DNA of 16,908 bases from Chloroflexota bacterium. Lineage in GTDB: Bacteria > Chloroflexota > Limnocylindria > Limnocylindrales > CSP1-4. Where the stretch lies: assembly GCA_030271555.1 (NCBI GenBank), contig JARXKQ010000002.1, positions 1-16,908 on the forward strand, read 5' to 3'. The notes beneath the pieces were generated by a model. That model made no database searches, was not told the DNA's origin, and saw only the letters and a program-made list of their open reading frames with translations. Both the position numbers and the translations under genes were made by a program. Positions 529-16,908 of the stretch are shown here, piece by piece. Each line of letters begins with the position of its first letter. The stretch's first letter is position 1.

Positions 529-532
529 GCGG

Positions 533-973: not shown

Positions 974-995
974 GGCCGCAGGATAGCGCCTCGCC

Positions 996-1001
996 TATAC
1001 T
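996..1001 (+). promoter_or_regulatory. Candidate -10 element upstream of purH
   Basis: The hexamer TATACT sits in the 65-bp gap between the divergent membrane-protein gene and purH, 37 bases before the purH GTG. No convincing -35 box is seen at 16-18 bp spacing, so this is only a candidate. A purH ribosome binding site, AGGAG, is at 1030-1034, four bases before the start. Confidence 0.3.
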
Positions 1002-1038
1002 CGGCCAGCCAACTCGCGGAGAGGGACTTAGGAGAGAC

Positions 1039-2478: not shown

Positions 2479-2488
2479 GGAGAGCCAA

Positions 2489-3466: not shown

Positions 3467-3481
3467 CACAGCGCACTTCAA

Positions 3482-3850
3482 ATGCTCGGGATTGTCCTGC
3501 TCCTGGTTACCGCCATTCTCTCGGCCTGGGTCGCTACGCAGTTCTGGGACTACCCCGCTTGGCCGCGCTACCTCGTCTCATTCATTGCGCTACTTGACGT
3601 CATCGCAATCGTCGCGGTCCTGGTGCGACAGCGTTGGTCTCGACGGTTGACGATGATCCTCATGGGTACTCAGTTCATAGGTGTCGACGCCGTCCTCGTG
3701 GTAGCAGCAGGTGTCCTGGTGCGTGACAACGATTTAGGGGCATCTCTCACTCTGATCCCGATCTTCTTCATCCTGCCCGCCCTCTTGAACTCGGCTATCG
3801 CACTAGTAGTCGCAAGATCCATCGGCAAGTTGGCCTGGCTTGACCGTTAG
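3482..3850 (+). CDS. Four-helix small membrane protein, lower GC than neighbours
   Basis: This 122-residue protein is not recognised. It has four hydrophobic segments at about residues 2-22, 29-47, 56-79 and 87-112, joined by short loops (QRWSRR at about 50-55 is the main positive loop), which fits a small integral membrane protein. It starts 15 bases after glpX without a visible ribosome binding site, and its end overlaps the next gene's TTG start by 11 bases. By direct count the G+C over 3481-3840 is about 58%, lower than the adjacent genes, and it uses codons such as TTA, CTA and GTA that are rare nearby. This could be a recently acquired or fast-evolving gene, though hydrophobic proteins are naturally somewhat lower in GC. 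No function can be assigned. Confidence 0.65.
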   Translation: MLGIVLLLVTAILSAWVATQFWDYPAWPRYLVSFIALLDVIAIVAVLVRQRWSRRLTMILMGTQFIGVDAVLVVAAGVLVRDNDLGASLTLIPIFFILPALLNSAIALVVARSIGKLAWLDR

Positions 3851-5114
3851 CACGAAGCGCAGCTCCGTCTTCAAGGGCATCACCCGTAACGTCGCCGCGC
3901 TGGCGCTGGTCAGCCTCCTGACCGACGTCTCGTCGGAGATGCTGGTCTACCTCGTGCCGCTCTACCTGGCGAACGTGTTGCTCGCCGGCCCGGCGATCAT
4001 CGGTCTGATCGAGGGCATCGCCGAGAGCGCGGCGGCGGCCGTGAAGCTGGTCAGCGGCGCGCTGAGCGACCGGCTGGGCCGGCGGAAGCTGCTTGTGGGC
4101 ATCGGCTACGGCTCATCGACCCTGGCCAAGGCGCTGTTCGTCGTTGCCACCTCCTGGCCTCTCGTCCTGCTGGCGCGTTTGGGCGATCGACTCGGCAAGG
4201 GCATCCGCACCGCACCGCGCGATGCCCTGATCGCCGACTCGACTGACGCGCCCTATCGCGGCCGCGCGTTTGGATTTCACCGCGCGATGGACACGCTGGG
4301 TGCCTTCTTCGGTGTGATCGCGGCGCTCGTGATCGTGATCGTCGCGGCAGGCGGCGAGCGCCAGCTCGACGCACCAACTTTCCAGCTGATCGCGCTGATC
4401 GCGCTAATTCCGGCCGCTCTGGCAGTCGGGGTCATCTTTATCGGCGTCCGGGATGTGCGCCGTGCGCCCAAGGCGACGACGGTGGAATCAGCTCCCGCGG
4501 GGAGTCGGTGGCAGCGGCTCATGGCCACCGCGCGCCAATTGCCGCGGCCGTTCTGGCTGTTCGTCGCCGCCAACACGTTGTTCGCGCTGGGCAATTCGAG
4601 CGACGCGTTCCTGGCATTGCGGACACAGCAGCTGGGCGCGGTGCTGACCGATCTGCTGCTGATGATCGTGGCGATGAACCTGGTCGATACGCTCATCTCG
4701 TTCCCGGCCGGCGCGCTGAGCGACAGGTTCGGCCGGCGCGCACCACTGGTGATCGCGTGGCTGGTCTACGCGGCGGCGTACGCCGGCTTCGCCCTGGCGG
4801 CCTCGCCGATCGCGGCCGCCGGACTTTGGATCCTTTATGGCGCGTACTACGGCATCAACGAGGCCGTCGGCCGCGCGTTCATCGCCGACGTCACGCCGGC
4901 CAATCTGCGCGCGACGGGCTACGGCATCCTCAACGCGGCGATTGCGGTCGCAGTGCTGCCCGCCTCGGTCGTGGCGGGGTTGCTGTGGGACGCGTACGGG
5001 CCGCCGATTCCTTTCTGGATCGGCGCAGCATTCGCGCTGGCCGCAGTCGTCGTATTGCTCCTGATTCGCACGCACAGCAACGGAGCGCGACCAGCAACCA
5101 TGGCAACCGCATGA
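3840..5114 (+). CDS. MFS transporter
   Basis: The product is a 424-residue major facilitator superfamily permease with about 12 hydrophobic segments in two six-helix halves. The first half shows LLTDVSSEMLVYLVPLYL (21-38), typical of a bacterial MFS subgroup of unknown substrate, followed by the loop 2-3 signature GALSDRLGRRK (74-84) and LARLGDRLGKGIRTAPRDAL (about 111-130). The second half repeats the signature as GALSDRFGRR. The protein begins at TTG 3840, the only start that keeps the conserved N-terminus; it overlaps the previous gene by 11 bases. Its stop overlaps the phoD start as ATGA, so the two are translationally coupled. The substrate cannot be inferred from sequence; coupling to a phosphatase could hint at a phosphorylated compound, but this is guesswork. 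Confidence 0.88.
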   Translation: MTVSTKRSSVFKGITRNVAALALVSLLTDVSSEMLVYLVPLYLANVLLAGPAIIGLIEGIAESAAAAVKLVSGALSDRLGRRKLLVGIGYGSSTLAKALFVVATSWPLVLLARLGDRLGKGIRTAPRDALIADSTDAPYRGRAFGFHRAMDTLGAFFGVIAALVIVIVAAGGERQLDAPTFQLIALIALIPAALAVGVIFIGVRDVRRAPKATTVESAPAGSRWQRLMATARQLPRPFWLFVAANTLFALGNSSDAFLALRTQQLGAVLTDLLLMIVAMNLVDTLISFPAGALSDRFGRRAPLVIAWLVYAAAYAGFALAASPIAAAGLWILYGAYYGINEAVGRAFIADVTPANLRATGYGILNAAIAVAVLPASVVAGLLWDAYGPPIPFWIGAAFALAAVVVLLLIRTHSNGARPATMATA

Positions 5115-6607
5115 GCAGCTTCCGCCACGGCGTAGCCAGCGGTGACCCGACCCCGGATCGAGTCGTTATCTGGACACGTTTTTCAGGGAGTCCGGCCCAG
5201 GACCCGGCAGAGTTGCGCTGGACCGTTGCCGAAGACGACCGCTTCAAGGCGGTTGTCGGCTCCGGGTCGGTGACTGCCGGACCAGACACCGACTTCACCG
5301 CCCAGGTAGATGTCGGCGGTTTGGAGCCCGCCACCCACTACTGGTATCGGTTTGAGGCTCCGGAGGGAGACGTGTCGCCAACGGGTAGGACGAAGACATT
5401 GCCCGCAGGCAATGTCGAAAGGGTCAGATTCGGGGTCGTGTCGTGCGCGAAGTTCAACGCCGGCTTCTTCAACGGCTACGGCCGCTTGGCCGACCGCGCG
5501 GACCTCGATTTCGTGCTGCACCTGGGCGACTACATCTACGAGGCGTCGGAGACACCGCCGGCGAATCAGACACCGGGCGCCGACATCGGCCGGCCGTTCG
5601 AGCCGCGCAACGAATGCGTGACGCTCGCCGACTACCGGACGCGCTACGCCCAATACCACGCCGATCCCGACACGCAGGCGATGCATGCCGCGCACCCGCT
5701 GATCGCCACGCTTGACGATCACGAGTTCGCCGACGGCGCATGGCGCGGCGGCTCCGACAACCACGACGAGCAGCGCGACGGCCCGTGGGCGGACCGCCGT
5801 GCGGCTGCATTCCGGGCGCGGCGCGAATGGCTGCCGGTGCGCCTGCCCGACCCGGCCCAGCTCGATCGCGTCTATCGCTCAGTTGCGCTGGGCAACCTCG
5901 CCGACATGTTCATCATCGACACCCGTACAGGGCGCGACCAGCCAGTCAAGGGATCGGCCGCGGCCGATCCGGCGCGGACCCAGCTGGGCCACGTCCAGCG
6001 TGACTGGCTTTTCGACGGCTTGAGGAAGTCGCGCGCCAAGTGGCGACTCCTCGCCAACTCCTCGATCCTGGGCCGCACCTGGGCGCGCGGCATCCCCAAG
6101 GAGCTGCATGACGGGCTTGCCTGGCTGAAGCTCATCAACACTGGCGGCGAAGGTCCCGACGCCGACCAGTGGGAGGGCTATCCGTACGAGCGCAACCTGC
6201 TCATCGAGCACCTCGCGCGCGAGAACACGGTTGTGCTGTCGGGCGACATCCACATCGGCATGGCGCTCCAGCTCGAACGCGCCGGCGCGCCCGGCAAGTC
6301 GATCGCACCCGAATTCGTCACGGCCAGCCTGACCTCACAGAACCTGGACGACAAGACCGGCTGGGGCTACCGGATCAAGTCACCCGCGGTCGAGCGCGAG
6401 TTCCTGGCTGCGCTGTCGAACGTGCTCTGGACCGACATGGACAGCCACGGCTACATGCTGGCCGACCTGACGCCCGATCGGTTGCGCATCGAGTGGTGGT
6501 TCGTCGATACGGTCCTGGAGCGGACGCACAACGAGCGGTTGGGGGCCTCAGCCGAGGTTAAGGCGGGCAGCCCGGAGATCGTGAACTACAACTTCCCCAC
6601 GACCTGA
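5111..6607 (+). CDS. phoD: PhoD-family alkaline phosphatase/phosphodiesterase without signal peptide
   Basis: This 498-residue metallophosphoesterase resembles PhoD enzymes, which cleave phosphate mono- or diesters using a Fe/Ca or similar metal centre. The N-terminal Fibronectin-like PhoD domain starts at once with FRHGVASGDPTPDRVVIWTR (4-23). The catalytic domain has SCAKFNAGFFNGYGRLADR (111-129), the metal motif HLGDYIYE (137-144, D140 and Y143), LDDHEFADGAW (201-211) and SGDIHIG (377-383). These cover the usual Cys, Asp, Tyr and His positions. Classical PhoD proteins carry a Tat signal peptide; here the protein begins directly with the mature N-terminus and the upstream in-frame codons lie inside the MFS gene and do not form a signal, so a cytoplasmic location is predicted. 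The ATG at 5111 overlaps the MFS stop. The 3' end overlaps folK by 22 bp, tail to tail. Confidence 0.9.
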   Translation: MSSFRHGVASGDPTPDRVVIWTRFSGSPAQDPAELRWTVAEDDRFKAVVGSGSVTAGPDTDFTAQVDVGGLEPATHYWYRFEAPEGDVSPTGRTKTLPAGNVERVRFGVVSCAKFNAGFFNGYGRLADRADLDFVLHLGDYIYEASETPPANQTPGADIGRPFEPRNECVTLADYRTRYAQYHADPDTQAMHAAHPLIATLDDHEFADGAWRGGSDNHDEQRDGPWADRRAAAFRARREWLPVRLPDPAQLDRVYRSVALGNLADMFIIDTRTGRDQPVKGSAAADPARTQLGHVQRDWLFDGLRKSRAKWRLLANSSILGRTWARGIPKELHDGLAWLKLINTGGEGPDADQWEGYPYERNLLIEHLARENTVVLSGDIHIGMALQLERAGAPGKSIAPEFVTASLTSQNLDDKTGWGYRIKSPAVEREFLAALSNVLWTDMDSHGYMLADLTPDRLRIEWWFVDTVLERTHNERLGASAEVKAGSPEIVNYNFPTT

Positions 6608-7128
6608 ACGGCGTTTTGGGACTCATCCGCGGCCACGCGCCGGCGGGCGGCCTCGACCGACTCTCCCCAGCCTGGTGGGACCAGCCACGGGGCAAGGTCG
6701 GCCAGGGGCGCGAGCACGAAGAGGCGCGCCTGGGCATCCTTGTGCGGGACTTCCAACCAGCGGCCATTTGGCCGCACGACCTTGATCTGGTGGCGGCCGA
6801 ACATGAGCAAATCCAGGTCGATCTCGCGCGGGCCCCAGCGGCGCCGGACCTTGCGGCCGATGGCAATTTCGAGCACCTTGAGGGTCGCCATGAGTGCCAG
6901 CGCGCCGGTCTCCGGATCGGCGCCGTTCGGAACGTCGAGCGCCACCACGGCATTCAGGAAGTCCGGCTGGTCGGTCACTCCGACGGGCTTGGTCCGGTAC
7001 AGGCGGGAAACGCCGCGCAGGCCTACGCCGGGCAACGCACCCAGGGCACGCACCGCGTGGCGCAGGTTGGCGCGGGTGTCGCCAACGTTCGCGCCCAGAC
7101 CCACATAAGCCCGCACATGCTTGGCCAT
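6586..7128 (-). CDS. folK: 2-amino-4-hydroxy-6-hydroxymethyldihydropteridine pyrophosphokinase
   Basis: FolK (HPPK) transfers pyrophosphate from ATP to 6-hydroxymethyl-7,8-dihydropterin in folate synthesis, in the cytoplasm. The 180-residue product shows the full family pattern: AYVGLGANVGD (7-17), YRTKPVGVTDQPDFLNAVV (44-62), RRWGPREIDLDLLMFG (96-111) with the two magnesium Asp residues D104 and D106, and VPHKDAQARLFVLAPLADLAP (127-147). I chose the ATG at 7126-7128 because it gives the normal FolK N-terminus; the frame is open further upstream but that would run through the divergent gene. A weak GAAGG lies eight bases before the start. It stands alone rather than next to folP or folB in this window. 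The purH product uses a folate cofactor, but there is no operon link. Confidence 0.94.
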   Translation of the reverse strand: MAKHVRAYVGLGANVGDTRANLRHAVRALGALPGVGLRGVSRLYRTKPVGVTDQPDFLNAVVALDVPNGADPETGALALMATLKVLEIAIGRKVRRRWGPREIDLDLLMFGRHQIKVVRPNGRWLEVPHKDAQARLFVLAPLADLAPWLVPPGWGESVEAARRRVAADESQNAVQVVGKL

Positions 7129-7141
7129 GTTGCTGCCTTCA

Positions 7142-7151
7142 AATCTAGACT
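7142..7151. promoter_or_regulatory. Overlapping divergent -10-like elements between folK and the 7162 gene
   Basis: The 33-bp gap between two divergent starts centres on the palindrome TCTAGA (7144-7149). Read on the plus strand it gives TAGACT (7146-7151), 10 bases before the ATG at 7162; read on the minus strand it gives TAGATT (7147-7142), 13 bases before the folK ATG. Both are good -10 matches. The plus-strand transcript would have almost no leader. -35 boxes are poor (TTGGCC at 7121-7126 with a long 19-bp spacer for the plus strand). Confidence 0.45.
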
Positions 7152-7161
7152 CAGGCCGCCT

Positions 7162-8253
7162 ATGACTCGTCCGGCCGTGCTCATCTTCCACCGCCCGGCG
7201 AGTGTTGGCGAGCCGGAACTCGTCAGTTTCCTGGCCGATGTCCGCGCTGAGCTGGCCCAGCGCCAGGCGGCGTTGTTCGAGCGCGCCGGCGCGGCACCGG
7301 CCCAGATGTTGGACGAGTGGCACGAAGGGCTGACGTTCGGCGAGGTCCTGGCGAGCGTCGCGCCGGCGCGCGGCGGGGCGGTGGTCTTTGGTAGCGGCGC
7401 GGTCCCGCGGCTCAACGCCGCTGACGCGCGGCGCCTGGTCAGCGTTGCCGCGTCAAGCGAGCGCCACGCCATCACGAACAACCGCTATTCATCGGACATA
7501 GTCGCCGTAGGCCGCGCCGCGATCCTGCGCGATCTGCCGGCGCTGCCCAGCGACAACCCATTGCCGCGTTGGCTCGAGGAACGCGCCGGCTTTGTCGTGT
7601 CGGAGCTGCCGGGCAGGGAGCGGCTGGCGGTCGATCTGGATACGCCGCTCGATGTCGCTCTCGCCGCGCTCGCTCCTGGCGCGCCACAGTGGCTGCGCCG
7701 CGCGGCGGGCGCTGCCGGCATCGCCGTTCCGCGTCTGGAAGAGTTGCGCGGCGTGGTGCGCGATCCGACCAAAGAGCTGCTCATCTTCGGCCGGAGCGGG
7801 TCGCGCACCCTCGCCTGGCTCGAGCGCAACGTTCGTTGCCGGGTCCGCTTCCTGTCCGAGGAGCGCGGCCTGCGCGCGTCCAGCCCGTTGGCCATCGCGG
7901 GGGCCTCGGCGACCGTTAGACGCGAGCCGAAGAGCACCCTCAGCATGCTGCTTGAGCGGCGTGGCCCAGCGGAGTTCGCCGACATTGTCGAGGACCTGGG
8001 CGATGCGGCGCTCGTCGACAGCCGCGTCCTGCTCGCGGCCCGTCTGGGCGCCGACGAGTCGCGCTGGCCGCAAGCTTTCGACCGCTTCAACAGCGACCTG
8101 AACCGCCCTGATCAAATCGCCGATCCGTGGTTGCGCGACCTGACCGCCTCAGCGTCCGCGGCCAAGCTGCCAATCCTGCTGGGCGGTCACAGCCTGGTCG
8201 GCCCCGGCGTCAGGCTGCTGCTCGCTCCTGGGGCCAAGGCGAAGGGTCGGTAG
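7162..8253 (+). CDS. Unrecognised two-part protein, weakly resembling MobA/CofC-type nucleotidyltransferases
   Basis: This 363-residue soluble protein is not recognised with confidence. The first part has features seen in MobA/CofC-like nucleotidyltransferases: GGAVVFGSGAVPRLNAADAR (71-90) is like the segment holding 'GSD-x-P-x-L', followed by ITNNRYSSDIVAV (104-116), LPSDNPLPRWLEE (128-140) and AVDLDTPLDVALA (156-168), similar to the common 'DIDTPEDL' tail of that fold. The usual N-terminal Gly-rich nucleotide loop is not seen, so a real activity is doubtful. The second part (about 195-363) has LLIFGRSGSRTLAWLERN (206-223), DSRVLLAARLGADESRWP (286-303) and LLGGHSLVGPGVRLLL (339-354), which I cannot place. 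The ATG at 7162 is chosen because the frame upstream is antisense to folK. It is divergent from folK and lies upstream of the complex I operon, separated by 146 bp. Confidence 0.65.
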   Translation: MTRPAVLIFHRPASVGEPELVSFLADVRAELAQRQAALFERAGAAPAQMLDEWHEGLTFGEVLASVAPARGGAVVFGSGAVPRLNAADARRLVSVAASSERHAITNNRYSSDIVAVGRAAILRDLPALPSDNPLPRWLEERAGFVVSELPGRERLAVDLDTPLDVALAALAPGAPQWLRRAAGAAGIAVPRLEELRGVVRDPTKELLIFGRSGSRTLAWLERNVRCRVRFLSEERGLRASSPLAIAGASATVRREPKSTLSMLLERRGPAEFADIVEDLGDAALVDSRVLLAARLGADESRWPQAFDRFNSDLNRPDQIADPWLRDLTASASAAKLPILLGGHSLVGPGVRLLLAPGAKAKGR

Positions 8254-8399: not shown

Positions 8400-8759
8400 T
8401 TGACGACAGGCCTGTGGTACGTGATCGGGTTCGCCTTCGCGGGCGCGACGTTCGTACTCATCACGATCATCGCCTCATGGCTGTTGAGCCATCGCAGCCG
8501 GGGGGATCGCCACAAGGGCATGCCCTATGAATCGGGCATCGATACATACGGCTATACCTGGGGGCGGACCGGGCTTTCCTTCTACATCTACGCGCTGCTG
8601 TTCGTCGCCTTCGACATCGAGGTCGTGTTCATCTATCTCTGGGCGATCGTGTTCCGTGACGTGCTGCTGGGCGGCTTTCTGGCCATGCTGCTGTTCGTGG
8701 TCATCCTGCTCATCGGTCTGGGCTACGCCTGGCGCAAGGGGGTTCTGACGTGGAAGTGA
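8400..8759 (+). CDS. nuoA: NADH-quinone oxidoreductase subunit A
   Basis: NuoA is a three-helix membrane subunit of complex I, lying near the quinone channel beside NuoH. The 119-residue length is standard. Hydrophobic segments lie at about residues 7-28, 61-82 and 87-113. The hallmark loop [20 protein letters not shown] (41-60) and the motif [15 protein letters not shown] (67-81), with the conserved acidic residues in helix 2, are present. The TTG at 8400 is the start: a TAG stop lies directly before it in frame, GAGG is five bases upstream, and the next in-frame start would remove the first helix's N-terminus. It is the first gene of the operon and its end overlaps nuoB by 10 bases. Confidence 0.93.
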
Positions 8760-9469
8760 AAACGCGCGCCACGGGCACCAAGGCGGTCGCAAAGCCAAGC
8801 GAAGAGTCGCGCGTGATCACCGCGCCAAATGACGACCTGGTCGAGGCGATCGTCGTTGAGAACAAGCTCTGGACGCCGACCAACCCCAACGCCTACGGCG
8901 GCCTCCAGCCCCCGCAGATCACCCACCTGCGCGCCGAAGAGCATGCCGACAAGGGCGACACCGGTCGCTGGCGCGCGCTGGACATCATCCCGACTAAGGC
9001 CGACTACGTGCTCGATCTCATCCGGCTCAACAGCCTGTGGCCGCTCACCTCGGGTCTGGCGTGCTGCGCGATCGAGATGATGTCCGCGGCGACGCCGTGG
9101 AACGACATGGACCGCTTCAACATGTTCCCGTTCCGGGCCAGCCCGCGCCAGGCCGACGTGCTCATCGTCGCCGGCACGCTCACGACCAAGATGGCCGGAC
9201 CGCTGCTGCGGCTGTGGGAGCAGATGCCGGAGCCCAAGTGGTGTGTCGCGATGGGTGATTGCACCTGCTCGGGTGGTCGGTACAAGCGCTCGTACGCGAC
9301 GGTCGAAGGGATCGATCGGATCATGCCCGTCGACGTATACGTGCCGGGCTGCCCGCCGCGGCCGGAAGGGCTGATCTACGGGATGATGAAGCTCCAGCAG
9401 CTGATCAAGGAGCGCCGAGGCCATTGGGCCGAGCGGAACGTGGGACCCACGGTTCCGGACGGCGTCTAG
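8750..9469 (+). CDS. nuoB: NADH-quinone oxidoreductase subunit B, with N-terminal extension
   Basis: NuoB carries the terminal 4Fe-4S cluster N2 that passes electrons to quinone. The 239-residue protein has the tandem Cys pair in [11 protein letters not shown] (C105, C106), the third ligand C171 in [11 protein letters not shown] and the fourth C201 in [11 protein letters not shown]. The first 80-odd residues are an extension beyond typical NuoB and include NPNAYGG. Two extra Cys flank the third ligand (C165 and C173), and the C171-C201 spacing is one residue longer than in the E. coli and Thermus proteins. The GTG at 8750 has an AAGGGGG ribosome binding site (8736-8742) inside nuoA. A second GTG at 8756 would change only two residues. 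The stop at 9469 is followed at once by the nuoC ribosome binding site. Confidence 0.94.
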
Positions 9470-9482: not shown

Positions 9483-10094
9483 GTTACGGACACGCAGCTC
9501 AAGCGCCGTCTTCAGGCCGCCTTCGGCGAGCGTTTCAGCGCGCCCCTGACGCAGAAGGCGGACACGACCGAGATCTGGATCGGTGCCAAGGACGTCACCG
9601 ACGTCATGCGCTCGTTGCACGACGACGAGCAGTTCGAGTTCGAGCTGCTGGCCGACCTCGCCGGCGTCGACACCGGCACCGAGATGTGGGTCGTCTACCA
9701 CCTGTGGTCGCCGCGCAGCGCCGACTGGTTGCGCGTCGTCGCTGCCGGCCTGTCCCGCGAGGACCCACGCGCGCCATCGGTGACGTTCCTCTGGAAAGGC
9801 GCCGAGTGGGCCGAGCGCGAGGCCTACGACATGTTCGGCATCGTCTTTGAAGGCAATCGCGACCTGCGCCGGATCTACATGCCGCCCGACTACACGTCCT
9901 TCCCGCTGCGCAAGGACTTCCTGCTTCCCGACGATGCGGCACGCTCACCCGGCGAGGGTGTGCGCCACGTCGAACAGGCATTCGCGCCGCTCGAGCAGCA
10001 CGGCACGCAGCCCGTCATGCGCCGGGCCGAGCTTGGGCCACGCACCACTCCCGCCGCGGACGAGCTGACGGCAGGGACGGAGAAGCCGGCATGA
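9483..10094 (+). CDS. nuoC: NADH-quinone oxidoreductase subunit C (start codon unclear)
   Basis: NuoC (30-kDa subunit) is a peripheral-arm protein that packs against NuoD near the quinone site. The C-terminal signature is clear: [20 protein letters not shown] followed by [20 protein letters not shown]. The first ATG in frame is at 9606 and would give 162 residues, but reading back in frame gives [17 protein letters not shown] and [20 protein letters not shown], which is a normal NuoC N-terminus. I place the start at 9483 (GTT) or 9486 (ACG), giving about 202-203 residues, six and nine bases after GGAGG of the strong ribosome binding site. Either a rare start codon is used or one base (9485) differs from the real sequence: a G there would make GTG. 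An annotation from 9606 would cut about 40 residues. The stop overlaps nuoD as ATGA. Confidence 0.85.
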
Positions 10095-11314
10095 CCACTG
10101 ATCGCGGCACGGTCCGCTCGCTCGACGATCCCAACATCTTTGTCGAGACGCCGGCCACCATCTTTGACGCGGTCCCGCCGTACCCGCCACGAACCGAGCG
10201 CGAGGCCGAGTTCTACCACCTGCGCGACGGCGAGATGCTGCTCAACCTGGGGCCGCAGCACCCCTCAACGCACGGCGTGCTGCGCGTCGTCCTCAAGGTC
10301 GACGGCGAGCGCGTCACCGATCTCGACCCGGTGCTGGGCTACCTGCACCGCGGCGTCGAGAAGATCTGCGAGAACGGCGACTGGCACCAGGCGATCAGCA
10401 ACTGCGACCCGCTCGAGTACGTGGCGTCAATGTTCAGCGAGGCCATGCCGGTGCTCGCGGCTGAGAAGCTGCTCGATCTCCAGGTGCCGCGCCGCGCCGA
10501 ATACATCCGCGTCCTGTGCTGGGAGCTCAACCGGATCGCGAGCCACGGCCTGTTCATGGGCTGGCTGGCGCTTGACCTGGGCGGCCTGACGCCGCTGCTC
10601 TACGGCTTCATCGAGCGCGACACGATCGTCGAGATGATGGCCGCGCTCACCGGTCAGCGGATGCTCTTCAACTATCTGCGCATCGGCGGCGTCAACCGCG
10701 ACCTGAACCACGACTTCCTGTCGCGGCTGGGCGACTGGATGGGCAAGGCCGCCGTCGAGCTCGAGAACGAAGCCAAGCTGCTCAACGAGAACGAGATCTT
10801 CGTCCGGCGCACGAAGGGCATGGGCACACTCGATCGGGAGGCGGCGCTGCGGCTGTGCGTCACCGGTCCCAACCTGCGTGCGGCCGGCGTGCCCTACGAC
10901 GTGCGCCGTGCCCACCCCTACAGCGTCTATCCGGAGCTCGACTTCGACATCCCGACACGCGAGGAAGGCGACTCGTACGCGCGCTATCTGCTGCGCATCG
11001 ATGAGATCCGCGAGAGCATCCGGATCATCGACCAGTGCCTGCATGAGATGCCCGACGGGCCGATCATGGCCAAGATCCCGCGCCTGATCCGCATCCCGCC
11101 GGGGCGGGCCTTCATCTCGGTCGAGAGCCCGCGCGGCCAGTACTCGTGCTACGCCATGAGCGATGGCTCCGATCAGCCCTTCCGGCTGCGGCTGCACGAC
11201 CCGTCGTACTTCACCCTCCAGGCAGTCGGTCATCTGCTGCCGGGCAACCTGATCGCTGATTCGATGGCCGTCATGGCCAGCCTCGATCCGATCATGGGCG
11301 GCATCGATAAGTGA
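10091..11314 (+). CDS. nuoD: NADH-quinone oxidoreductase subunit D
   Basis: NuoD (49-kDa subunit) forms most of the quinone-reduction pocket with NuoB. The 407-residue length is standard. The signature [13 protein letters not shown] (53-65) holds the quinone-site His (H57, by comparison with Thermus His38), followed by [10 protein letters not shown] (82-91). Y110 in DPLEYVASM aligns with the Thermus quinone-binding Tyr87. [12 protein letters not shown] and the C-terminal end [11 protein letters not shown] are also typical. NuoD lacks metal ligands, as expected of complex I rather than of a [NiFe] hydrogenase large subunit. The first 45 residues are a longer N-terminal region than in the shortest homologues. 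ATG 10091 overlaps the nuoC stop, and the TGA overlaps the nuoH GTG, so translation is coupled on both sides. Confidence 0.96.
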
Positions 11315-12699
11315 GCGTCATTACCCGGCCGTGGAACCGGCTATCGCTGGCCGGCAAGATCATCCTGCCGCTATTCCTGCTGCTGGTGCTGCTCACCGTG
11401 CTGCTCATTGCCGGCTGGCAGATCGGCGTCATCCCAGGGCTGATCGAGATCGTCGCCGATCTCGTGCGCAGCAACATCGACATCTTCCGCTTCATCGGGA
11501 CCGCGACGGTCACCCTGCTCATCACCATCCCGGTGGCCTTCGTGATCATCTACATGGAGATGAAGGTGATCGCCTTTCTGGCGTCACGCATCGGCCCCAA
11601 CAGGATCGGGCCGTGGGGCACGCTGAGCTCGGTCTTCCATGGGTTCAAGGTGCTGGCGAAAGAGGACTTCACGCCGACCGGCGCCGACGCGGCGGTCTTC
11701 ACCATGGCGCCGATCATCACCTACCTGTCGAGCGTCCTGACGCTGCTCGTCATCCCGTTCGCGCCAGGCCTGGTGGGCCTGGATATGAACATCGGGCTGC
11801 TCTACTTCTTCGCAGTATCGGGCTTGACCGTGGTCGGCTTGTTGACCGCCGGCTGGTCGAGCTTCAACAAGTACTCGCTTATCGGCGGCCTGCGCGCAGC
11901 GGCCCAGATCGTGTCCTACGAGCTGCCGCTGCTGCTCGCGCCGGTGGGCATCATCATGCTGGCCGGCACGCTGTCGCTGAACCAGATCGTGATCAAGCAG
12001 GCCGGCTGGTTCTGGGACTGGTACGTCTTCCAGCAGCCGCTGGCGTTCATCGTCTTCTTCATCGCCGCGACCGCTGAAGGCAACCGCACGCCATTCGACC
12101 TGACCGAGGCCGACAGCGAGATCGTGGCCGGCTTCGCGACCGAGTACAGCGGCATGCGCTTCGGTTTCTTCTTCTTTGCCGAGTACGTGAACGTGTTCAT
12201 CCTCTCGGCGCTGACCGTCGTGCTGTTCTTCGGTGGCTGGAACTCACCGATCAATGCGCAGGAGGTTCTCAACTTCCTCCATATCGGCTCGCTGACGCCC
12301 AACCTGGATATCTCGACCCTGGGCATCTGGCTGCTGTGGATCCTCGTCTTCGGCGTGCCGATCATCCTGTTGCTGATCGCGCTGCCGCTTTGGCTGCTGA
12401 AGAGCAGCTGGTCGTTCGTGAAGTCGCTGATCGTCGCGTTTGTGCTGTTCAACGTGCTGGCCGTGGCCGCGTTCATGGTTTGGGCCTTCCTCTCATTCGA
12501 GGTGGTTGTCGGGCTCATCTGGTTCCTGGCCAAGGTCTTCACGTTCGTCTTCATCTTTGTCTGGATGCGCGGCACCCTGCCGCGCGTCCGCATTGACCAG
12601 CTGATGGGCTTCGCCTGGAAGTGGCTGGTCGAGATTGCGCTGCTCAACGTGTTCATCACCGCCGGCGCGATCCTGCTGCTGCAAGAACTAAACCGATGA
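11311..12699 (+). CDS. nuoH: NADH-quinone oxidoreductase subunit H with extra membrane segments
   Basis: NuoH links the membrane arm to the quinone chamber and has eight helices in about 325-350 residues usually. This protein has 462. Conserved blocks are ASRIGPNRIGPWG (91-103), KVLAKEDFTP (113-122), GWSSFNKYSLIGGLRAAAQ (181-199), AEGNRTPFDLTEADSE (255-270) with the acidic loop, EYSGMRFGFFFFAEY (278-292) and WMRGTLPRVRIDQLM (418-432). Two parts are extra: an N-terminal hydrophobic segment at about 16-36, and an insertion of about 75 residues between LFFGGW (305-310) and the last-helix region (405 onward). The insertion holds hydrophobic stretches at about 338-363 and 371-400. GTG 11311 forms a GTGA overlap with nuoD; the stop overlaps the next ATG. 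The frame is continuous with no sign of a gene fusion by error. Confidence 0.94.
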   Translation: MSVITRPWNRLSLAGKIILPLFLLLVLLTVLLIAGWQIGVIPGLIEIVADLVRSNIDIFRFIGTATVTLLITIPVAFVIIYMEMKVIAFLASRIGPNRIGPWGTLSSVFHGFKVLAKEDFTPTGADAAVFTMAPIITYLSSVLTLLVIPFAPGLVGLDMNIGLLYFFAVSGLTVVGLLTAGWSSFNKYSLIGGLRAAAQIVSYELPLLLAPVGIIMLAGTLSLNQIVIKQAGWFWDWYVFQQPLAFIVFFIAATAEGNRTPFDLTEADSEIVAGFATEYSGMRFGFFFFAEYVNVFILSALTVVLFFGGWNSPINAQEVLNFLHIGSLTPNLDISTLGIWLLWILVFGVPIILLLIALPLWLLKSSWSFVKSLIVAFVLFNVLAVAAFMVWAFLSFEVVVGLIWFLAKVFTFVFIFVWMRGTLPRVRIDQLMGFAWKWLVEIALLNVFITAGAILLLQELNR

Positions 12700-13538
12700 G
12701 CATCATGAGCAAGATCCCCGGCTGGGGCATCGCCAAGGGCATGGCCTTCACGTTCAAGAAGTTCGTGCAGCCCAAGATCACGATCCAGTACCCCGATGAG
12801 CGGCAGGACATCTCGCCCCACCACCGCGGCCGCCTCGTGCTGCTGTACGACGAGCGCGGCAATCTCAAGTGCGAGACCTGCTTCCAGTGCGCCATGGCCT
12901 GCCCCATCGAGATCATCGACATGGGCGGCGTCGACACCAAGAACCGGATGCATGTTCACTGGGGCCCGGCGGAGCAGTACGCCGAGCGGCGCGAAGAGTC
13001 CGCGCTGCGCAGATCCGGCCGACCAGTTGCCGACAAAGTCTTCGCGGCCTGGTTGCCCATCGACCTGGGCCCGCTCGAGCGCATCCTCGCGGCGAACGAA
13101 TACGACCCGCACAGACTTTTGGCGATCCTCAACGAGACGCAGTCCGCCTACGGCCACCTGCCGGTCGCGGCGCTCCAGCACATCAGCCACTCAACCGGTG
13201 CCTGGTACAGCGAGATCTACGGCATCGCGAGCTCCTACCCGCAGCTCATCTTCGAGCCCGGCCGCGTGACTCAGATCGGCCTGTGCCGCTGCCCGGTGTG
13301 CACGCTCGCGGGCGGCGGCAAGGTGCGCGACGCGCTCGTTGACGCGCTGGGCGTGGACGTCGGCGGCGTGACCCCGGATGGCGCCGTCCGCTTCGTGGCC
13401 GCTGACTGTGGCGGCGACAACGGCGGCGAGCCGCTGGTCACGCTTGACGGGCAGCTGCAGCCGGGTATGACGGCGGACAAGGCCCGCAGCCTGGCCGAAA
13501 AGCTGCGCGCGCAAAGCCGCGCGACGGCGACGGCTTGA
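12696..13538 (+). CDS. nuoI-nuoE: Fused NuoI-NuoE protein with reduced iron-sulfur motifs
   Basis: This 280-residue protein joins two complex I subunits that are normally separate. Residues 1-110 resemble NuoI, the 4Fe-4S relay protein: GMAFTFKKFVQPKITIQYP (15-33) then C59-x2-C62-x2-C65-x3-C69-P. The second 4Fe-4S motif of normal NuoI is absent; GVDTKNRMHVHWGPAEQY (78-95) and a charged linker follow instead. Residues 126-275 resemble NuoE (24-kDa subunit): YDPHRLLAILNETQSAYGHLP (136-156, without the first residue), ISHSTGAWYSEIYGIASSY (163-181), then 2Fe-2S ligands C197-x4-C202 and C238. The fourth ligand position, four residues after C238, is Asn242. Spacing C202-C238 is 36 residues, as in E. 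coli NuoE, so the alignment is firm. An extra Cys (C199) lies in the first motif. ATG 12696 overlaps the nuoH stop. No frameshift is visible at the junction. Confidence 0.87.
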   Translation: MSIMSKIPGWGIAKGMAFTFKKFVQPKITIQYPDERQDISPHHRGRLVLLYDERGNLKCETCFQCAMACPIEIIDMGGVDTKNRMHVHWGPAEQYAERREESALRRSGRPVADKVFAAWLPIDLGPLERILAANEYDPHRLLAILNETQSAYGHLPVAALQHISHSTGAWYSEIYGIASSYPQLIFEPGRVTQIGLCRCPVCTLAGGGKVRDALVDALGVDVGGVTPDGAVRFVAADCGGDNGGEPLVTLDGQLQPGMTADKARSLAEKLRAQSRATATA

Positions 13539-13557
13539 GCGGGCGAGCACAAGCACG

Positions 13558-14877
13558 ATGAAGATACTCGCCTCGCCCAAGGGAGTGCCCCAGATCCTGA
13601 CCGGCCGCTTTGGCAAGTACGACCCTGACGGTCCGTTGGCCGCGGCCGAGCAGGCCGGTGCGTGGCAGGCCTGGAAGAAAGCGGCAGTTGCGATGAGCCC
13701 CGCCCAGGTCACACGGATCGTGGCCGATGCCGGACTGCGCGGCCGCGGTGGCGCGGGCTATCCGGCGGCAACCAAATGGCGTGCCGCGGCCGCGGTCGAC
13801 GCCGATCGGCGCTACGTCGTCGCCAACGGCTTCGAGGCAGATCCGGGCGCGATGGTCGATCGGACCCTCATGGAAAATGATCCGCACGCCATCGTTGAAG
13901 GCGTCGCCTTCGCAGCGTTCGCGGCCGGCGCCAGCCACGCGTACATCGCGGTTCGGGCCAATCTCGCGGTCGCCCTGAAGCGCCTGAGCGCGGCAGTTCG
14001 GGTCGCGGAGGAAGCCGGCTACATCGGCAGCAACGCCTTGAACGCCGGCTTCGACATCCACATCGAGGTCACGCCCGTCGAGGGCAGCATGGTCGTGGGC
14101 GAGGAGACCGTCCTGCTCCACGCCATCGAGAACAAGCGCGCCCAGCCCGATCAGCGCCCGCCCTACCCGACCGCGCGCGGCCTGTGGGACCGGCCAACTG
14201 TCGTCAACAACGTGGCCACGCTCGCCGCCGTGCCGTGGATCATGGCCAATGGTGCCGCGGCGTTCGCCGCCGTGGGCGACCCGGCTTTCCCGGGCACACA
14301 GCTCGTCCAGTTCGCCGGCGCATTCAAGAAGCCGGGGATCGTCGAGGTGCCACTGGGCATGAGCGTCCGCAAGCTGATCGACATCGCCGATCCGCTGCCC
14401 AAGCTCAAGGCGGTCCTCGTCGGCGGCCCCGCGGGCGGCTTTTTGTCGCCCACCGAGCTCGACACGCTCTACACGCCCGAAGCGCTCATCGCCCAGGGCT
14501 CCATGTTCGGCTCGGGCAGCGTGCTCGCAGTCGGGCCCGACACCTGTCTTGTCGAGATGGCCACAACCCTCGAGCGCTTCCTGTCCGACGAGGCATGCGG
14601 CAAGACCATTCCGTGCCGCATCGGCCTGCGCCGGCTGTACGAGATCGGCGCGAGGGCCACGACCGGCCTCTCGCGGCCTGATGACGCGAAGAACCTGGTC
14701 GACTTGGGCAACGACGTCCGCGCGGCCGCGCTGTGCGGCCTCGAGTACTGCGCGCCCAACCTTTTCCTGACCGGGATGCGCTTCTTTGCCGATGAATTCA
14801 ATGCGCATCTGCTCCACGGCACGTGTCCGGCCGGGGTGTGCAACCCTGTGCGCGTGGCGCGGACGGTGACGGCATGA
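13558..14877 (+). CDS. nuoF: NADH-quinone oxidoreductase subunit F with an altered N3 cluster motif
   Basis: NuoF holds FMN, the NADH site and 4Fe-4S cluster N3. The 439-residue protein shows LRGRGGAGYPAATKW (60-74), the glycine-rich nucleotide loop, and VVANGFEADPGAMVDRTLM (87-105), the FMN/NADH loop, which in typical NuoF reads like N-A-D-E-x-E-P-G; here one Glu is kept and the next is Asp. PVEGSMVVGEETVLLHAIE (173-191) is the usual 'GAYICGEETAL' region. The N3 motif normally reads C-G-K-C-x2-C; here it is C347-G-K-T350-I-P-C353, so one ligand is Thr. The fourth ligand C393 is in CGLEYCAPN, with an extra C398 that could substitute. The end, TCPAGVC, is typical. It starts 19 bases after the nuoI-nuoE stop with a poor ribosome binding site. 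Its stop overlaps the next start as ATGA. Confidence 0.92.
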   Translation: MKILASPKGVPQILTGRFGKYDPDGPLAAAEQAGAWQAWKKAAVAMSPAQVTRIVADAGLRGRGGAGYPAATKWRAAAAVDADRRYVVANGFEADPGAMVDRTLMENDPHAIVEGVAFAAFAAGASHAYIAVRANLAVALKRLSAAVRVAEEAGYIGSNALNAGFDIHIEVTPVEGSMVVGEETVLLHAIENKRAQPDQRPPYPTARGLWDRPTVVNNVATLAAVPWIMANGAAAFAAVGDPAFPGTQLVQFAGAFKKPGIVEVPLGMSVRKLIDIADPLPKLKAVLVGGPAGGFLSPTELDTLYTPEALIAQGSMFGSGSVLAVGPDTCLVEMATTLERFLSDEACGKTIPCRIGLRRLYEIGARATTGLSRPDDAKNLVDLGNDVRAAALCGLEYCAPNLFLTGMRFFADEFNAHLLHGTCPAGVCNPVRVARTVTA

Positions 14878-16908
14878 CTGACACGCTGCCGCGCCTCTAC
14901 GACGACGCCGCCGACGCACCGGTTGAGCGGCTGCTCGAAACGCAATCGCCGCAGCGGCGCCTGTCCTCGCCCACCTTCACGGTCGAGGTAGACGGCAAGC
15001 AATTCACAGGCCGCGAGGGTCAGACGATCCTCGAGATCTGCCGCGACAACGGCATCGACGTGCCGACGCTGTGCTACGAGCCCAAGCTCCCCGGCTTTGG
15101 CGCGTGCCGCATGTGCGTCGTCGACGTCGAGGGCGAAGAAAACCCGCCCATTTCGTGCTCGCGCGGGGCCGAGCCGAACATGAAGATCCAGACGCAGACG
15201 CCGCGCCTGCGTGAGATCCGCAAGACCAACCTCGAGCTGATCTTCTCCGACCACAACGCCTATTGCCTGCCCCCGTGCCAGAACAAGTGCCCCAGCCACA
15301 TCGACATCCCGGGCTTCCTCAAGGCCAACACTGAGGGCAACTTCGCCGAATCGGCGCGCATCTTCAAGCGCACCATCCCGTTCCCATCGGTCTTGGGCCG
15401 CGTCTGCCCGGCGCCGTGCGAGGAGCACTGCCGCCGCGACGAGGTCGAGGAAGCGATCGCGATCCGCGACAGCCACCGGTATGCCGGCGACCAGGTCCTG
15501 AAGGCGCAGGCCAACGGCATCAAGGCGCCGGTGCCGTTCGAGGTCCAGCCCAAGTCGGGCAAGCGCGTCGCGGTGATCGGCTCTGGGCCGGCGGGCATGG
15601 CTGCGGCCTATTACCTGCTGATCGCCGGCCACGACGTGACCATCTACGAGCGCGACCCGGCCCCGGGTGGCATGCTCCGTTATGGCATTCCGCAGTACCG
15701 ACTGCCCAAGGTGGAAGTGCTCGAGGCCGAGTACCAGTCGGTCTACGACCTGGGCGGCCAGATGGTGTGCAACGCCGAGCTGGGTAAGGACTTCACCATC
15801 GACGACCTGCAGAACCAGGGCTTCGATGCGGTGTGCGTCGCCATCGGCTGCTACGAGACGAACAAGCTGGGCGTGCCGGGCGAGGAAGCGGACGGGGTGC
15901 TCGACGGCCTCGAGTACCTGCGCATCGCCACGCTGGGCCTGCCCTATCCAGGCCATGCCGGCACGCGTGTCGTGGTCATCGGCGGCGGCTTTACCTCGAT
16001 GGACTGCACCCGCACGTCAGTCCGCCAGGGCGCCAAGGAAGTGACGCTCGTTTACCGCCGCGACATGAAGGACATGCCGGCGTCGAATGAGGTTCACGAA
16101 GCGCTCGAGGAGGGCGCGCGCGCGATCTTCCAGGCCGCGCCAACGCGCGTCGTGGCGGACCAGAACAACAAGGTCACCGGCGTCGAGTTCCAGCGCATGG
16201 CGATGGGCGCGCCTGACGCGTCTGGCCGGCGCCGCCCCGAGCCAGTCGCCGGCACGGAGTTCGTCATCGACTGCGACCGCGTCCTGCTGGCGATCGGCCA
16301 GGGGCCGCAGCTCGACTGGCTGTCAAAGGGCGCCGGGGGCATGACCGCCACCAAGAACCGCCGCCTCGCGGCCGACGCGGTCACCTTCAGCACCGGGCGC
16401 AAGGGCGTCTTCGGCACTGGGGACGTGCGCGTGGGCGCCGCGACCGTAGTCCAGGCCACGGCCGAGGGACGCCGCTCGGCGTACGCCATCGACGCGTACC
16501 TGAAGGGCCTGGACCTCGACGAGATCAAGACGCGCCAGACCCTCGCCGAGCCGCAGCCGGAGTTCCTGAACATCGTCCCCTACAGCGGCGAGATCAAGGA
16601 GCCGCGCTACCGGCTCAAGGCAATGCCCGCCGAAGTGCGCAACAAGAGCTACATCGAGTACGAGATCCCCTACAGCCAGCAGGAAGCGATGGCTGAGTCC
16701 AAGCGCTGCCTGCAGTGCACCTGCGAGGCGATCGGCTACTGCGACCTGCGCCGCCAGGGCATCGAATACGGCACGACCCTCAAGACGCTGGAACCGGAGC
16801 GGACCGGCTTCTCATTCCGCAGCGTCAACGACAACCGCTTCACCGGCACGAATCACGACTACATCCGCGACGACAGCCACGCCTTCATCCTGCGCGAGCC
16901 GTCGCGCT
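14874..16908 (+). CDS. NuoG-like iron-sulfur protein with inserted GltD-type FAD/NAD(P)H oxidoreductase domain (3' end cut)
   Basis: 678 residues are visible and the frame is open at the right edge. Residues 34-100 form a 2Fe-2S ferredoxin domain with C67-x10-C78-x2-C81-x13-C95, as in NuoG and some formate dehydrogenases. Residues 120-560 resemble GltD, the glutamate synthase small subunit family: Cys sets C131/C135/C139 and C178/C182/C186 (RVCPAPCEEHC), the FAD loop VAVIGSGPAGMAAAYYL (232-248), PGGMLRYGIPQYRLPK (264-279), the NAD(P) loop VVVIGGGFTSMDCTRT (366-381) and the FAD-closing GVFGTGDVRVGAATVVQA (511-528). A Cys cluster C612-x2-C615-x-C617-x5-C623 follows. The end, DDSHAFILREPSR, is like the lead-in to a 4Fe-4S ferredoxin domain of NuoG type. 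ATG 14874 overlaps the nuoF stop. It is probably the complex I subunit that takes the NuoG place, but could instead serve a separate NAD(P)H- or formate-linked enzyme. Confidence 0.85.
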   Translation, partial: MTDTLPRLYDDAADAPVERLLETQSPQRRLSSPTFTVEVDGKQFTGREGQTILEICRDNGIDVPTLCYEPKLPGFGACRMCVVDVEGEENPPISCSRGAEPNMKIQTQTPRLREIRKTNLELIFSDHNAYCLPPCQNKCPSHIDIPGFLKANTEGNFAESARIFKRTIPFPSVLGRVCPAPCEEHCRRDEVEEAIAIRDSHRYAGDQVLKAQANGIKAPVPFEVQPKSGKRVAVIGSGPAGMAAAYYLLIAGHDVTIYERDPAPGGMLRYGIPQYRLPKVEVLEAEYQSVYDLGGQMVCNAELGKDFTIDDLQNQGFDAVCVAIGCYETNKLGVPGEEADGVLDGLEYLRIATLGLPYPGHAGTRVVVIGGGFTSMDCTRTSVRQGAKEVTLVYRRDMKDMPASNEVHEALEEGARAIFQAAPTRVVADQNNKVTGVEFQRMAMGAPDASGRRRPEPVAGTEFVIDCDRVLLAIGQGPQLDWLSKGAGGMTATKNRRLAADAVTFSTGRKGVFGTGDVRVGAATVVQATAEGRRSAYAIDAYLKGLDLDEIKTRQTLAEPQPEFLNIVPYSGEIKEPRYRLKAMPAEVRNKSYIEYEIPYSQQEAMAESKRCLQCTCEAIGYCDLRRQGIEYGTTLKTLEPERTGFSFRSVNDNRFTGTNHDYIRDDSHAFILREPSR

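Follow-up and report, generated by a model that had tools for sequence, protein, structure and literature searches.

The closest described relatives of the locus analyzed here are a transhydrogenase and three forms of complex I. StnABC, the Stn transhydrogenase (Sporomusa-type Nfn, Nfn-Bfu), works alone as a purified complex and runs in both directions. Deletion of the StnA 2Fe-2S cluster abolished its bifurcation, and the FdhF-like end of StnC is needed to purify the active complex. Residue K170 of StnC, a ligand of the FAD-proximal cluster, is essential; the side branch C1/C2 at the C-terminal end of StnC was judged a dead end. In complex I itself, the origin of the NADH module is an old question. 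One view is that the 11-subunit form is the engine and that the input module was acquired later (available text of PMC11238625). Nuo-Bfu complexes were proposed in Deferribacteres, Proteobacteria, Planctomycetes, and Nitrospirae (available text of PMC9304861).

A complex I operon with a divided nuoI

The window, that is, the whole stretch of DNA analyzed, is an entire contig of 16,908 nucleotides from a Chloroflexota bacterium. Its last gene, which encodes a GltD-type protein, therefore stops at residue 678, and the later cysteine regions lay outside the view of the first-pass annotation. The genes of interest are:

8400..8759, + strand: nuoA (PF00507)
8750..9469, + strand: nuoB (PF01058/TIGR01957), with C105, C106, C171 or C173, and C201 available for cluster N2
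9606..10094, + strand: nuoC (PF00329)
10091..11314, + strand: nuoD, nearest model PRK12322
11311..12699, + strand: nuoH, 462 aa (PF00146, Pfam match in two stretches)
12696..13538, + strand: first half of nuoI fused to nuoE (NuoI'-E; TIGR01971 positions 1-67 of 121, PF01257 at residues 128-270)
13558..14877, + strand: nuoF, 439 aa, scoring nearest to HydB/StnB-type chains
14874..16908, + strand: gltD-nuoG, truncated at the contig end after residue 678 of about 860

We take the listed cysteines of NuoB to be the N2 ligand pattern. The broken Pfam match suggests that nuoH probably carries an insertion. Overlaps join nuoH to nuoI' and nuoF to gltD-nuoG, and 19 bases separate nuoI'-E from nuoF. 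Unlike canonical NuoD, the NuoD of the window has PRK12322 as its best, gap-free match (439.8 bits in one stretch; TIGR01962, 425.3 bits in two stretches with about 28 model positions missing). In the NuoD tree (proteins shorter than 200 aa left out), it branches with Paenibacillus and away from canonical NuoD (support 95/95); one Paenibacillus NuoD is the sole representative of 11-subunit forms there, and the sequences of this type group with support of 82/69.

Within the class of the window (Chloroflexota, near Limnocylindrales), 61 genomes were searched; 55 have the fused NuoI-NuoE, and the other 6 gave no NuoI'-E match. Ktedonobacteria also have this module, as do records titled Actinobacteria or Thermoleophilia. 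The gene order of relatives, shared by the Actinobacteria-titled records, is A-B-C-D-H-[I first half+E]-F-[GltD-G+I second half]-J-K-L-M-N. The genes to the right of the window, to which the first-pass annotation had pointed, are thus J-K-L-M-N in relatives, and the canonical core (B, C, D, and H) and membrane arm are present, with A, B, C, D, and H in the window and J-N after GltD-NuoG in relatives. The two nearest families contributed 48 loci, and in 37 of them a single contig bears NuoH, NuoI', GltD-NuoG, and NuoJ. The order test failed in 6 of the 48 loci, the sole difference in all six being that N is listed before M, which we read as cross-matching of related antiporter subunits. Cultured carriers include Thermogemmatispora, Ktedonobacter, Dictyobacter, and Thermosporothrix, and carrier lineages are known from soil, groundwater, and lakes.

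The first-pass annotation had noted that NuoI holds one 4Fe-4S motif and is fused to NuoE. Both observations stand, as the NuoE domain (PF01257, 13077-13505) follows in the same frame after the motif:

12870..12905, + strand: sole 4Fe-4S motif of NuoI', CETCFQCAMACP (CxxCxxCxxxCP)

By sequence comparison, however, the "missing" motif of NuoI has not disappeared but sits, in homologues, beyond the contig end, at the C-terminus of the GltD-type "NuoG," which rules out the simple loss of a NuoI cluster that had been suggested earlier. The homologue P0004 (860 aa, 99% identical over 98% of the cut GltD query) is encoded on a separate 4520-base contig. The NuoI model TIGR01971 (121 positions) matches NuoI' of the window over positions 1-67 (51.4 bits alone, 50.4 in a search of its own genome; cut-off 113.05) and the P0004 tail over positions 72-113 (44.5 bits, ranking first among 18,950 models; the top model named neither NuoI nor NdhI scores 30.4 bits). 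NuoI is again the top model for tail pieces of three other families (48.8-50.4 bits), with the match starting at position 50 in two of the three, as these pieces include part of the preceding region. Typed together, both halves give a single stretch, 1-113, of 106.8 bits, which is below the cut-off; an undivided canonical NuoI covers 1-121, and the undivided nuoI of Paenibacillus is matched by both halves.

NuoI' of the window and its relatives differs from canonical NuoI, which has two 4Fe-4S motifs in one chain. One motif was found in 52 of 52 NuoI' proteins of relatives (loci from 53 of 54 other matched genomes, one locus being without NuoI'; G047 was left out). The same holds for all 63 readable NuoI' of 78 named loci (15 have no readable NuoI'), a set that overlaps the earlier, unnamed one, with at least 18 loci sharing DNA. 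A third motif and the tail are at the end of GltD-NuoG in 77 of the 78 named loci, and the 78th is cut. All eight Cys of the split ferredoxin are invariant in the homologue alignments. Because P0004 is on a separate contig and all 52 relatives have one motif, the Cys changes are not due to chance or error; sequencing error or a local frameshift is ruled out, as the patterns recur in dozens of genomes. No account of a split NuoI or of a complex of this type was found in the titles and abstract beginnings of the open literature searched.

A GltD-type protein in the place of NuoG

The protein in the NuoG position had been described as carrying a GltD-like FAD- and NAD(P)-binding domain between its 2Fe-2S domain and a Cys cluster, and this arrangement is borne out:

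15072..15158, + strand: 2Fe-2S site, N1b-like (PF13510)
15252..15431, + strand: HNAYCLPPCQNKCP and CPAPCEEHC, the Stn-type HxxxCxxxCxxxCP and Fer4_20 Cys (PF14691)
15474..15476, + strand: codon for H201, which all 25 rows of alignment A2 share and which aligns with StnC K170
15579..16082, + strand: GSGPAG (FAD fold), GGGFTSMD, and YRRDMKDMPA (NAD(P) fold) (PF07992/PF00070)
16707..16742, + strand: Cys cluster CLQCTCEAIGYC, near the Stn motif CxxCxCxxxxC

The YRR stretch of the GltD domain is invariant in the alignment and presumably takes part in 2'-phosphate binding. Kinship to StnC suggests that the GltD FAD most likely oxidizes NADPH rather than NADH. Past residue 678, homologues have a HydA-like 2[4Fe-4S] region, after which comes the second NuoI half. 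The best solved relatives are 9bov, 8oh5 (StnABC), and 9n5u. The alignment of 8oh5_C covers residues 36-766 of P0004 (490.8 bits) and ends at 766; the FdhF-like C-terminal domain of StnC is missing from P0004, whose tail is NuoI-like instead. Searching plasmids with the truncated GltD protein returned 382 records, every one below 60% identity.

Against the curated NuoG model (cut-off 470.05 bits), the window protein scores 71.8 bits over 100 of 606 positions. No NuoG above 470.05 bits was found in the 18 genomes of the window's class, which have lower-scoring NuoG-like pieces of up to 130.5 bits (G018) and, in 7 of the 18, additional NuoF-like genes. NuoG above the cut-off was found in 6 of the 26 genomes searched, all six in other classes. 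A second canonical nuoEFGI set, which could have served complex I in place of this one, was likewise not found in the 18 class genomes searched. The window's own assembly (63% complete, with the window's own GltD-NuoG tail absent) yielded single matches for NuoE and NuoF and, in the NuoI search, the window's half and three weak ferredoxin-like matches; antiporter-type fragments are on its contigs C288 and C123. The assignment of the module to complex I holds in view of nuoJ-N in the operon of relatives, the complementary two-locus layout of sister families, and the lack of NuoG over the cut-off in the 18 class genomes.

Proposed electron path and its direction

We propose that the locus encodes a proton-pumping complex I with a remodeled Stn-type transhydrogenase input module, in which electrons enter at the GltD FAD and pass through the split NuoI to N2 (probability of about 0.68). 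The sequences themselves show that each half is homologous to NuoI, that the Cys are conserved, how the genes are ordered, and that NuoG over the cut-off is lacking in the class genomes searched; the insertion history, assembly, shared ligation, donor, direction, and pumping are what we infer. An ancestral 11-subunit operon, A-B-C-D-H-I-J-K-L-M-N, would have received an stnABC-like cassette within nuoI, at a point that separates the two 4Fe-4S motifs. StnA/NuoE would have become fused to the first NuoI half, and the second half would have been joined to the GltD-NuoG end, where StnC bears its FdhF-like domain. The GltD FAD would be reduced by NAD(P)H, most likely NADPH, and electrons would move from the GltD-NuoG clusters to the HydA-like two-cluster region and on to a two-subunit NuoI ferredoxin. 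In two-cluster ferredoxins, the fourth Cys of each motif serves the other half's cluster, and here each NuoI cluster may take three Cys ligands from one chain and the fourth from its partner. The two-subunit ferredoxin would pass electrons to N2 in NuoB and to quinone, driving the membrane arm.

We also lean toward the more specific view that an stnABC-like operon lies within an 11-subunit nuoI and that two subunits form one 2[4Fe-4S] ferredoxin with clusters ligated 3+1. The NAD(P)H module would then have been gained a second time, independently of NuoEFG, and the StnC-like C-terminal end would be the main road to quinone.

The same anatomy would serve a complex that runs mainly in reverse, with quinol and the proton-motive force driving NADP+ reduction as an NADPH supply. 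Stn is itself reversible, and Thermogemmatispora has a canonical complex I alongside this type, so that NADH oxidation there needs no second enzyme. In the window's class, however, the genomes searched yielded no complex I other than this type, which suits forward use. We consider mainly reverse operation unlikely.

The FMN branch and electron bifurcation

NuoE and NuoF were each reported to be short of one cluster ligand, and both are:

13284..13421, + strand: NuoE 2Fe-2S site, CRCPVC kept (13284-13301), second pair CGGDN (13404-13421) with one Cys missing
13741..13848, + strand: GRGGAGYP, the FMN glycine loop, and NGFEADPG, a loop with D before P as in StnB/HydB
14596..14751, + strand: N3 site with three of the four Cys ligands, CGKTIPC (14596-14616) and the remote Cys in LCGLEYC (14731-14751)
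14824..14841, + strand: CPAGVC close to the C-terminal end of NuoF, in alignment with the corresponding HydB stretch

Among the 32 f1 genomes, 17 are without the NuoE domain, 13 keep CxxxxC with at most one Cys of the second pair, and 2 are unreadable. The motif could be read in 133 NuoF (from 138 loci, some being one genome twice), and 65 of these retain the N3 Cys that the window lacks, so its loss is a local trait. These patterns suggest that the FMN branch (NuoF/NuoE) has decayed in this lineage and is probably structural or slow. Entry at the GltD-type FAD with a weakened FMN branch, as first envisaged, is still likely given the missing NuoE domains and the lost N3 ligand.

Both flavins could nevertheless work, with the NuoF FMN taking electrons from NADH, the GltD FAD taking them from NADPH, and both feeding quinone (confurcation), or electrons could be split as in Stn or the proposed Nuo-Bfu. 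NuoF of the window retains GRGGAGYP, GEET, and a D before P like that of StnB; beyond the set of the two nearest families, 63 of 92 loci have preserved the N3 Cys, among them four of five Actinobacteria-titled loci, the fifth being unreadable; and Nuo-Bfu has its proposed precedents in other phyla (available text of PMC9304861). On the other hand, a ferredoxin-type motif or StnB C-terminal ferredoxin domain is absent in 19 of 19 listed NuoF of this type, whereas an Stn-like NuoF has two such motifs. Neither Pfam nor motif searches found the BfuB-defining ferredoxin domain IPR017896 in NuoF of this type, and in the window the 439-aa NuoF, which starts 19 bases after nuoI'-E and shows the Pfam domains 51K, SLBB, and NADH_4Fe-4S, has no room for an StnB-type N-terminal thioredoxin domain. 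None of the 28 NuoE parts that retain CxxxxC has all four Cys, the domain is gone in the 17 f1 genomes, and deleting the StnA cluster is what ended bifurcation in Stn. We judge two working flavins unlikely. Splitting of electrons between two carriers, which the first-pass annotation had raised, is likewise unlikely, as core parts of StnAB/BfuBC are missing. The NuoF tree named no sister: this type groups in a single clade with support of just 56/32, and the row L217_4380 is very long (L163_4515, L211_3666, L212_4012, L214_2666, and proteins shorter than 250 aa were left out).

It is quite improbable that the tail and NuoI' are unpaired, with each half binding a cluster by itself, or no cluster at all, and with the tail as an extra ferredoxin-like end. 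Such a 4Fe-4S motif scores against many ferredoxins, and polyferredoxins score above NuoI chains in a PDB search with the tail. The tail is also present on five lone GltD-NuoG copies (L145, L149, L151, L153, and L160), with no nuo gene matched in the stretch examined. Yet the two pieces match distinct, adjoining NuoI halves, and the fourth Cys of both halves is conserved. A separate enzyme of NuoE, NuoF, and GltD proteins merely housed in the same operon, for which the independence of purified StnABC could speak, is highly improbable given the split NuoI, the two-locus complement, the order retained in Actinobacteria-titled records, the 37 of 48 loci with NuoH, NuoI', GltD-NuoG, and NuoJ together, and the loss of the FdhF-like end that active purified Stn requires.

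Several points count against our preferred reading of GltD entry and a split NuoI: the absent own tail, the lone GltD-NuoG copies, the 6 of 61 genomes without NuoI'-E, the NuoG-like pieces, the extra NuoF-like genes, the polyferredoxins placed first for the tail, the change of K170 to His, and the single 11-subunit NuoD reference.

Significance and comparison with known systems

Acquisition of an input module seems to have been repeated here with the joints still visible, as a transhydrogenase-like operon within nuoI. If true, a main electron path that runs through a ferredoxin core shared between two proteins would be structurally striking, and NADPH would be a direct respiratory donor in the carrier lineages. 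The cultured carriers make the proposal testable.

Nuo-Bfu is, in the available text of PMC9304861, the nearest published idea: a HydBC-like module replaces NuoEFG within a complex I operon. That text describes no GltD domain or split NuoI, and it defines BfuB with a ferredoxin domain, which is absent here.

Judged by its domains and motifs, the module resembles the Stn/Nfn-Bfu transhydrogenases, not canonical NuoEFG, and is without the parts that Stn needs to bifurcate. As in StnABC, a GltD domain with FAD and NAD(P) folds follows the 2Fe-2S domain within a NuoG-like protein, with HxxxCxxxCxxxCP and CxxCxC motifs. Unlike in Stn, the FdhF-like end is replaced by the second half of NuoI, the StnB ferredoxin domain is missing (in the window, the thioredoxin domain too), the four-Cys 2Fe-2S cluster of StnA is damaged or gone, K170 is His, and the module sits in a nuo operon.

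Canonical 14-subunit complex I shares B, C, D, H, J-N, and NuoE/F homologues with this type, which differs in that NuoG is under the family cut-off, NuoF is nearer to HydB/StnB, and NuoI is halved. The 11-subunit complex I of Paenibacillus shares the core gene order, the NuoD affinity, and, undivided, the NuoI that the halves match; unlike that form, this one has E, F, and GltD-G as an input module that divides NuoI.

Gene content and conservation of the nuo operon

The window is all of contig C3 (16,908 bases), from an assembly 1.63 Mb in size and 62.8% complete; the names of close homologues point to Chloroflexota near Limnocylindrales. Its nuo genes lie on one strand and comprise nuoA, nuoB, nuoC, nuoD and nuoH, a fusion of nuoI with nuoE, then nuoF and a gltD-nuoG truncated by the contig end, with these features alongside:

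70-8250, upstream of the nuo operon: cupin protein, purH-type AICARFT/IMPCHase, glpX fructose-bisphosphatase
70-8250, other genes of this upstream stretch: MFS transporter, PhoD phosphatase, HPPK (minus strand)
536-973, 3482-3847 and 7138-8250: upstream frames with no Pfam match at 1e-5
11311-12699: NuoH of 462 aa with a split Pfam match, as if an insertion were present

The cysteine changes described in the first-pass annotation were recovered: NuoI' (the first half of NuoI) has one CxxCxxCxxxCP, the second Cys pair of NuoE reads CGGDN, the N3 site of NuoF has three Cys, and the protein in the NuoG place has a 2Fe-2S / GltD / CxxCxC layout. The single NuoI motif is real and conserved, but it does not represent a lost cluster; the gene is split, and its second half lies on the GltD-NuoG of homologues.

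The module is a real, conserved feature of the window's class. The NuoI'-E fusion was matched in 55 of the 61 genomes searched from the window's family, order and class; no match was found in G003, G007, G013, G021, G042 and G054, two of which (G007 and G021) also had no full-length GltD-NuoG match. Among the loci read from 53 of the 54 other genomes with a fusion match, all NuoI' proteins read (52/52) have a single 4Fe-4S motif. For the genes present, the order A-B-C-D-H-I'-F-GltD-G-J-K-L-M-N on one strand is found in 42 of the 48 loci of the two families nearest the window, and H, I', GltD-G and J share a single contig in 37 of these 48.

The second half of NuoI is carried by GltD-NuoG of homologues

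Full-length relatives of GltD-NuoG extend about 180 residues past the window's contig end. The extension begins with a two-cluster region aligning with HydA chains (C679/682/685/689 and C722/725/728/732 in the 860-aa homologue P0004), followed by a third CxxCxxCxxxCP (754-764 in P0004) and then a tail, mostly with FEL. Searched alone, the P0004 tail has NuoI as the best of 18,950 models (positions 72-113, 44.5 bits; best model outside NuoI/NdhI names, 30.4 bits), and the window's NuoI' covers positions 1-67 (51.4 bits). NuoI was again the best model for tail pieces from three other families (48.8, 49.0 and 50.4 bits), one spanning positions 69-111 and two, which include part of the preceding region, 50-111. 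Concatenated, the halves match as a single stretch, 1-113, at 106.8 bits, just below the cut-off of 113.05; undivided Thermogemmatispora NuoI covers 1-121. A PDB search with the tail matched complex I NuoI/TYKY chains in their second halves, with polyferredoxins scoring higher through repeated motifs.

A scan of named records gave 327 stretches encoding a relative, from which 78 loci were retained; the third motif and tail form the protein end in 77 of these, the remaining one being cut. The 78 overlap in DNA with the other set of loci read, in at least 18 cases. Alignment of the solved Stn-type relatives (9bov_A, 8oh5_C and 9n5u_A) stops at residues 744-766. Three of the third motif's four Cys are absent from the Stn-like protein of G188, where neither NuoD nor NuoH was matched. 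This 0.9 Mb Chloroflexota genome has an Stn-like cluster with a StnC-like protein of 1205 aa and a StnB-like protein carrying two ferredoxin motifs.

NuoE and NuoF branch

NuoE decays across the two nearest families. In family 2, all 15 proteins keep CxxxxC and have no Cys of the second pair. In family 1, CxxxxC is kept in 13 of 32 genomes, 9 of these 13 with one second-pair Cys; the 2Fe-2S domain is gone in 17, among them G030 with a truncated end, and the other 2 could not be read. In three Actinobacteria-titled loci (L163, L165 and L172) the NuoF frame, judged by eye, opens with a NuoE-like stretch, and the NuoE remnant there seems joined to NuoF instead of NuoI'.

In the set of the two nearest families, T or S replaces one N3 Cys of NuoF at 43 of the 46 loci (C in 2, unreadable in 1). 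Outside that set it is C in 63 of 92 loci, T, S or A in 25 and unreadable in 4, these 92 including more loci from the class of the window as well as some genomes counted twice. The seven best PDB chains for NuoF (9bov_B, 9n5u_B, 8oh5_B and Hyd chains) score 335-351 bits, against at most 260 bits for complex I NuoF chains. In the NuoF tree this type stands apart from canonical NuoF (98/93), with no sister group gaining clear support.

Membership in complex I

Two other families of the class (f3 and f5) have the genes divided between a B-D-I'-F cluster and an A-C-H-J-K-L-M-N cluster, which combine into one set; GltD-G is next to B-D-I'-F in f3 and on a separate contig in f5, and nuoA was not seen in one of the three A-C-H-J-K-L-M-N clusters. 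Among 18 genomes of the window's class, each has one NuoH gene above 300 bits (three have weaker NuoH-like genes), none has NuoG above the cut-off, and NuoF is single in 11, with additional NuoF-like genes in 7.

Thermogemmatispora carboxidivorans has a module cluster nuoB-I'-F-GltD-G and a separate nuoA-C-D-H, plus a canonical 14-gene operon; nuoA-C-D-H is grouped in four more genomes from these families. Because nuoJ-N was seen adjoining neither place in Thermogemmatispora (L191, L094), its second complex I may borrow the canonical complex's membrane arm. Several Ktedonobacteria have additional GltD-NuoG copies, either adjacent or isolated: L140, L142 and L146 hold more than one, and L145, L149, L151, L153 and L160 have a lone copy, the stretches examined giving no match to any other nuo gene. 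The operon with J-N also occurs in records whose titles name Actinobacteria, Actinomycetes, Thermoleophilia or Gaiellales (L163, L165, L172, L178; L169 partly), such titles being fallible, as Proteobacteria-titled L125 shares DNA with a genome classed as Chloroflexota.

Origin of the operon

The 11-subunit nuo operon of Paenibacillus cellulosilyticus (A-B-C-D-H-I-J-K-L-M-N) has the same order as the window's type, except that in the latter E-F-GltD-G lies between the nuoI halves; NuoI' and the GltD-NuoG tail each match the 153-codon NuoI frame of Paenibacillus. The Stn genes of S. ovata are consecutive and, in order, NuoE-, NuoF- and GltD/NuoG-like. The simplest history would be that a stnABC-like cassette entered nuoI, fusing at both ends. 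This history is supported by NuoD: the window's protein fits PRK12322 gap-free and TIGR01962 in two stretches only, canonical Thermogemmatispora NuoD shows the opposite, and the tree separates 17 NuoD of this type plus Paenibacillus from 9 canonical ones (95/95).

Comparison with known systems

In two-cluster ferredoxins, each motif's fourth Cys ligates the other cluster. Both NuoI clusters should therefore be held jointly by the NuoI' and GltD-NuoG chains, which fits the invariance of the split ferredoxin's Cys (8/8).

Searches of the open literature turned up neither a GltD-type complex I nor a split NuoI. PMC9304861 proposed Nuo-Bfu, in which the complex I of certain other phyla carries a HydBC-like module, and Nfn-Bfu as another type; passages of PMC6776052 and PMC13374853 mention nuo genes of Thermogemmatispora T81 and cave Ktedonobacteria without remarking on the module. 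PMC10482914, PMC7483475 and PMC11238625 were also consulted.

In the transhydrogenase StnABC, as described in the literature, NADPH reduces the StnC FAD, electrons pass through C7, C6, C5, C4 and C3 to StnB, the C1/C2 branch is a non-functional remnant, and bifurcation depends on the StnA cluster. In the window's type, by contrast, the StnA-type cluster is damaged or gone, no ferredoxin domain was seen in NuoF (19/19), and the GltD-NuoG end runs into NuoI. Because of these three differences, electrons would likely flow from the GltD FAD through the GltD-NuoG clusters and the rebuilt NuoI pair to N2 and quinone, with NADPH the probable donor by kinship to StnC. A further change concerns K170 of StnC, an essential ligand of the FAD-proximal cluster, whose position is His in all 25 GltD-NuoG rows (P0004 residue 201; window 15474-15476), hinting at a His-ligated cluster. 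The enzyme is best classed as a complex I with Stn-like input, rather than as Stn, Bfu or canonical complex I.
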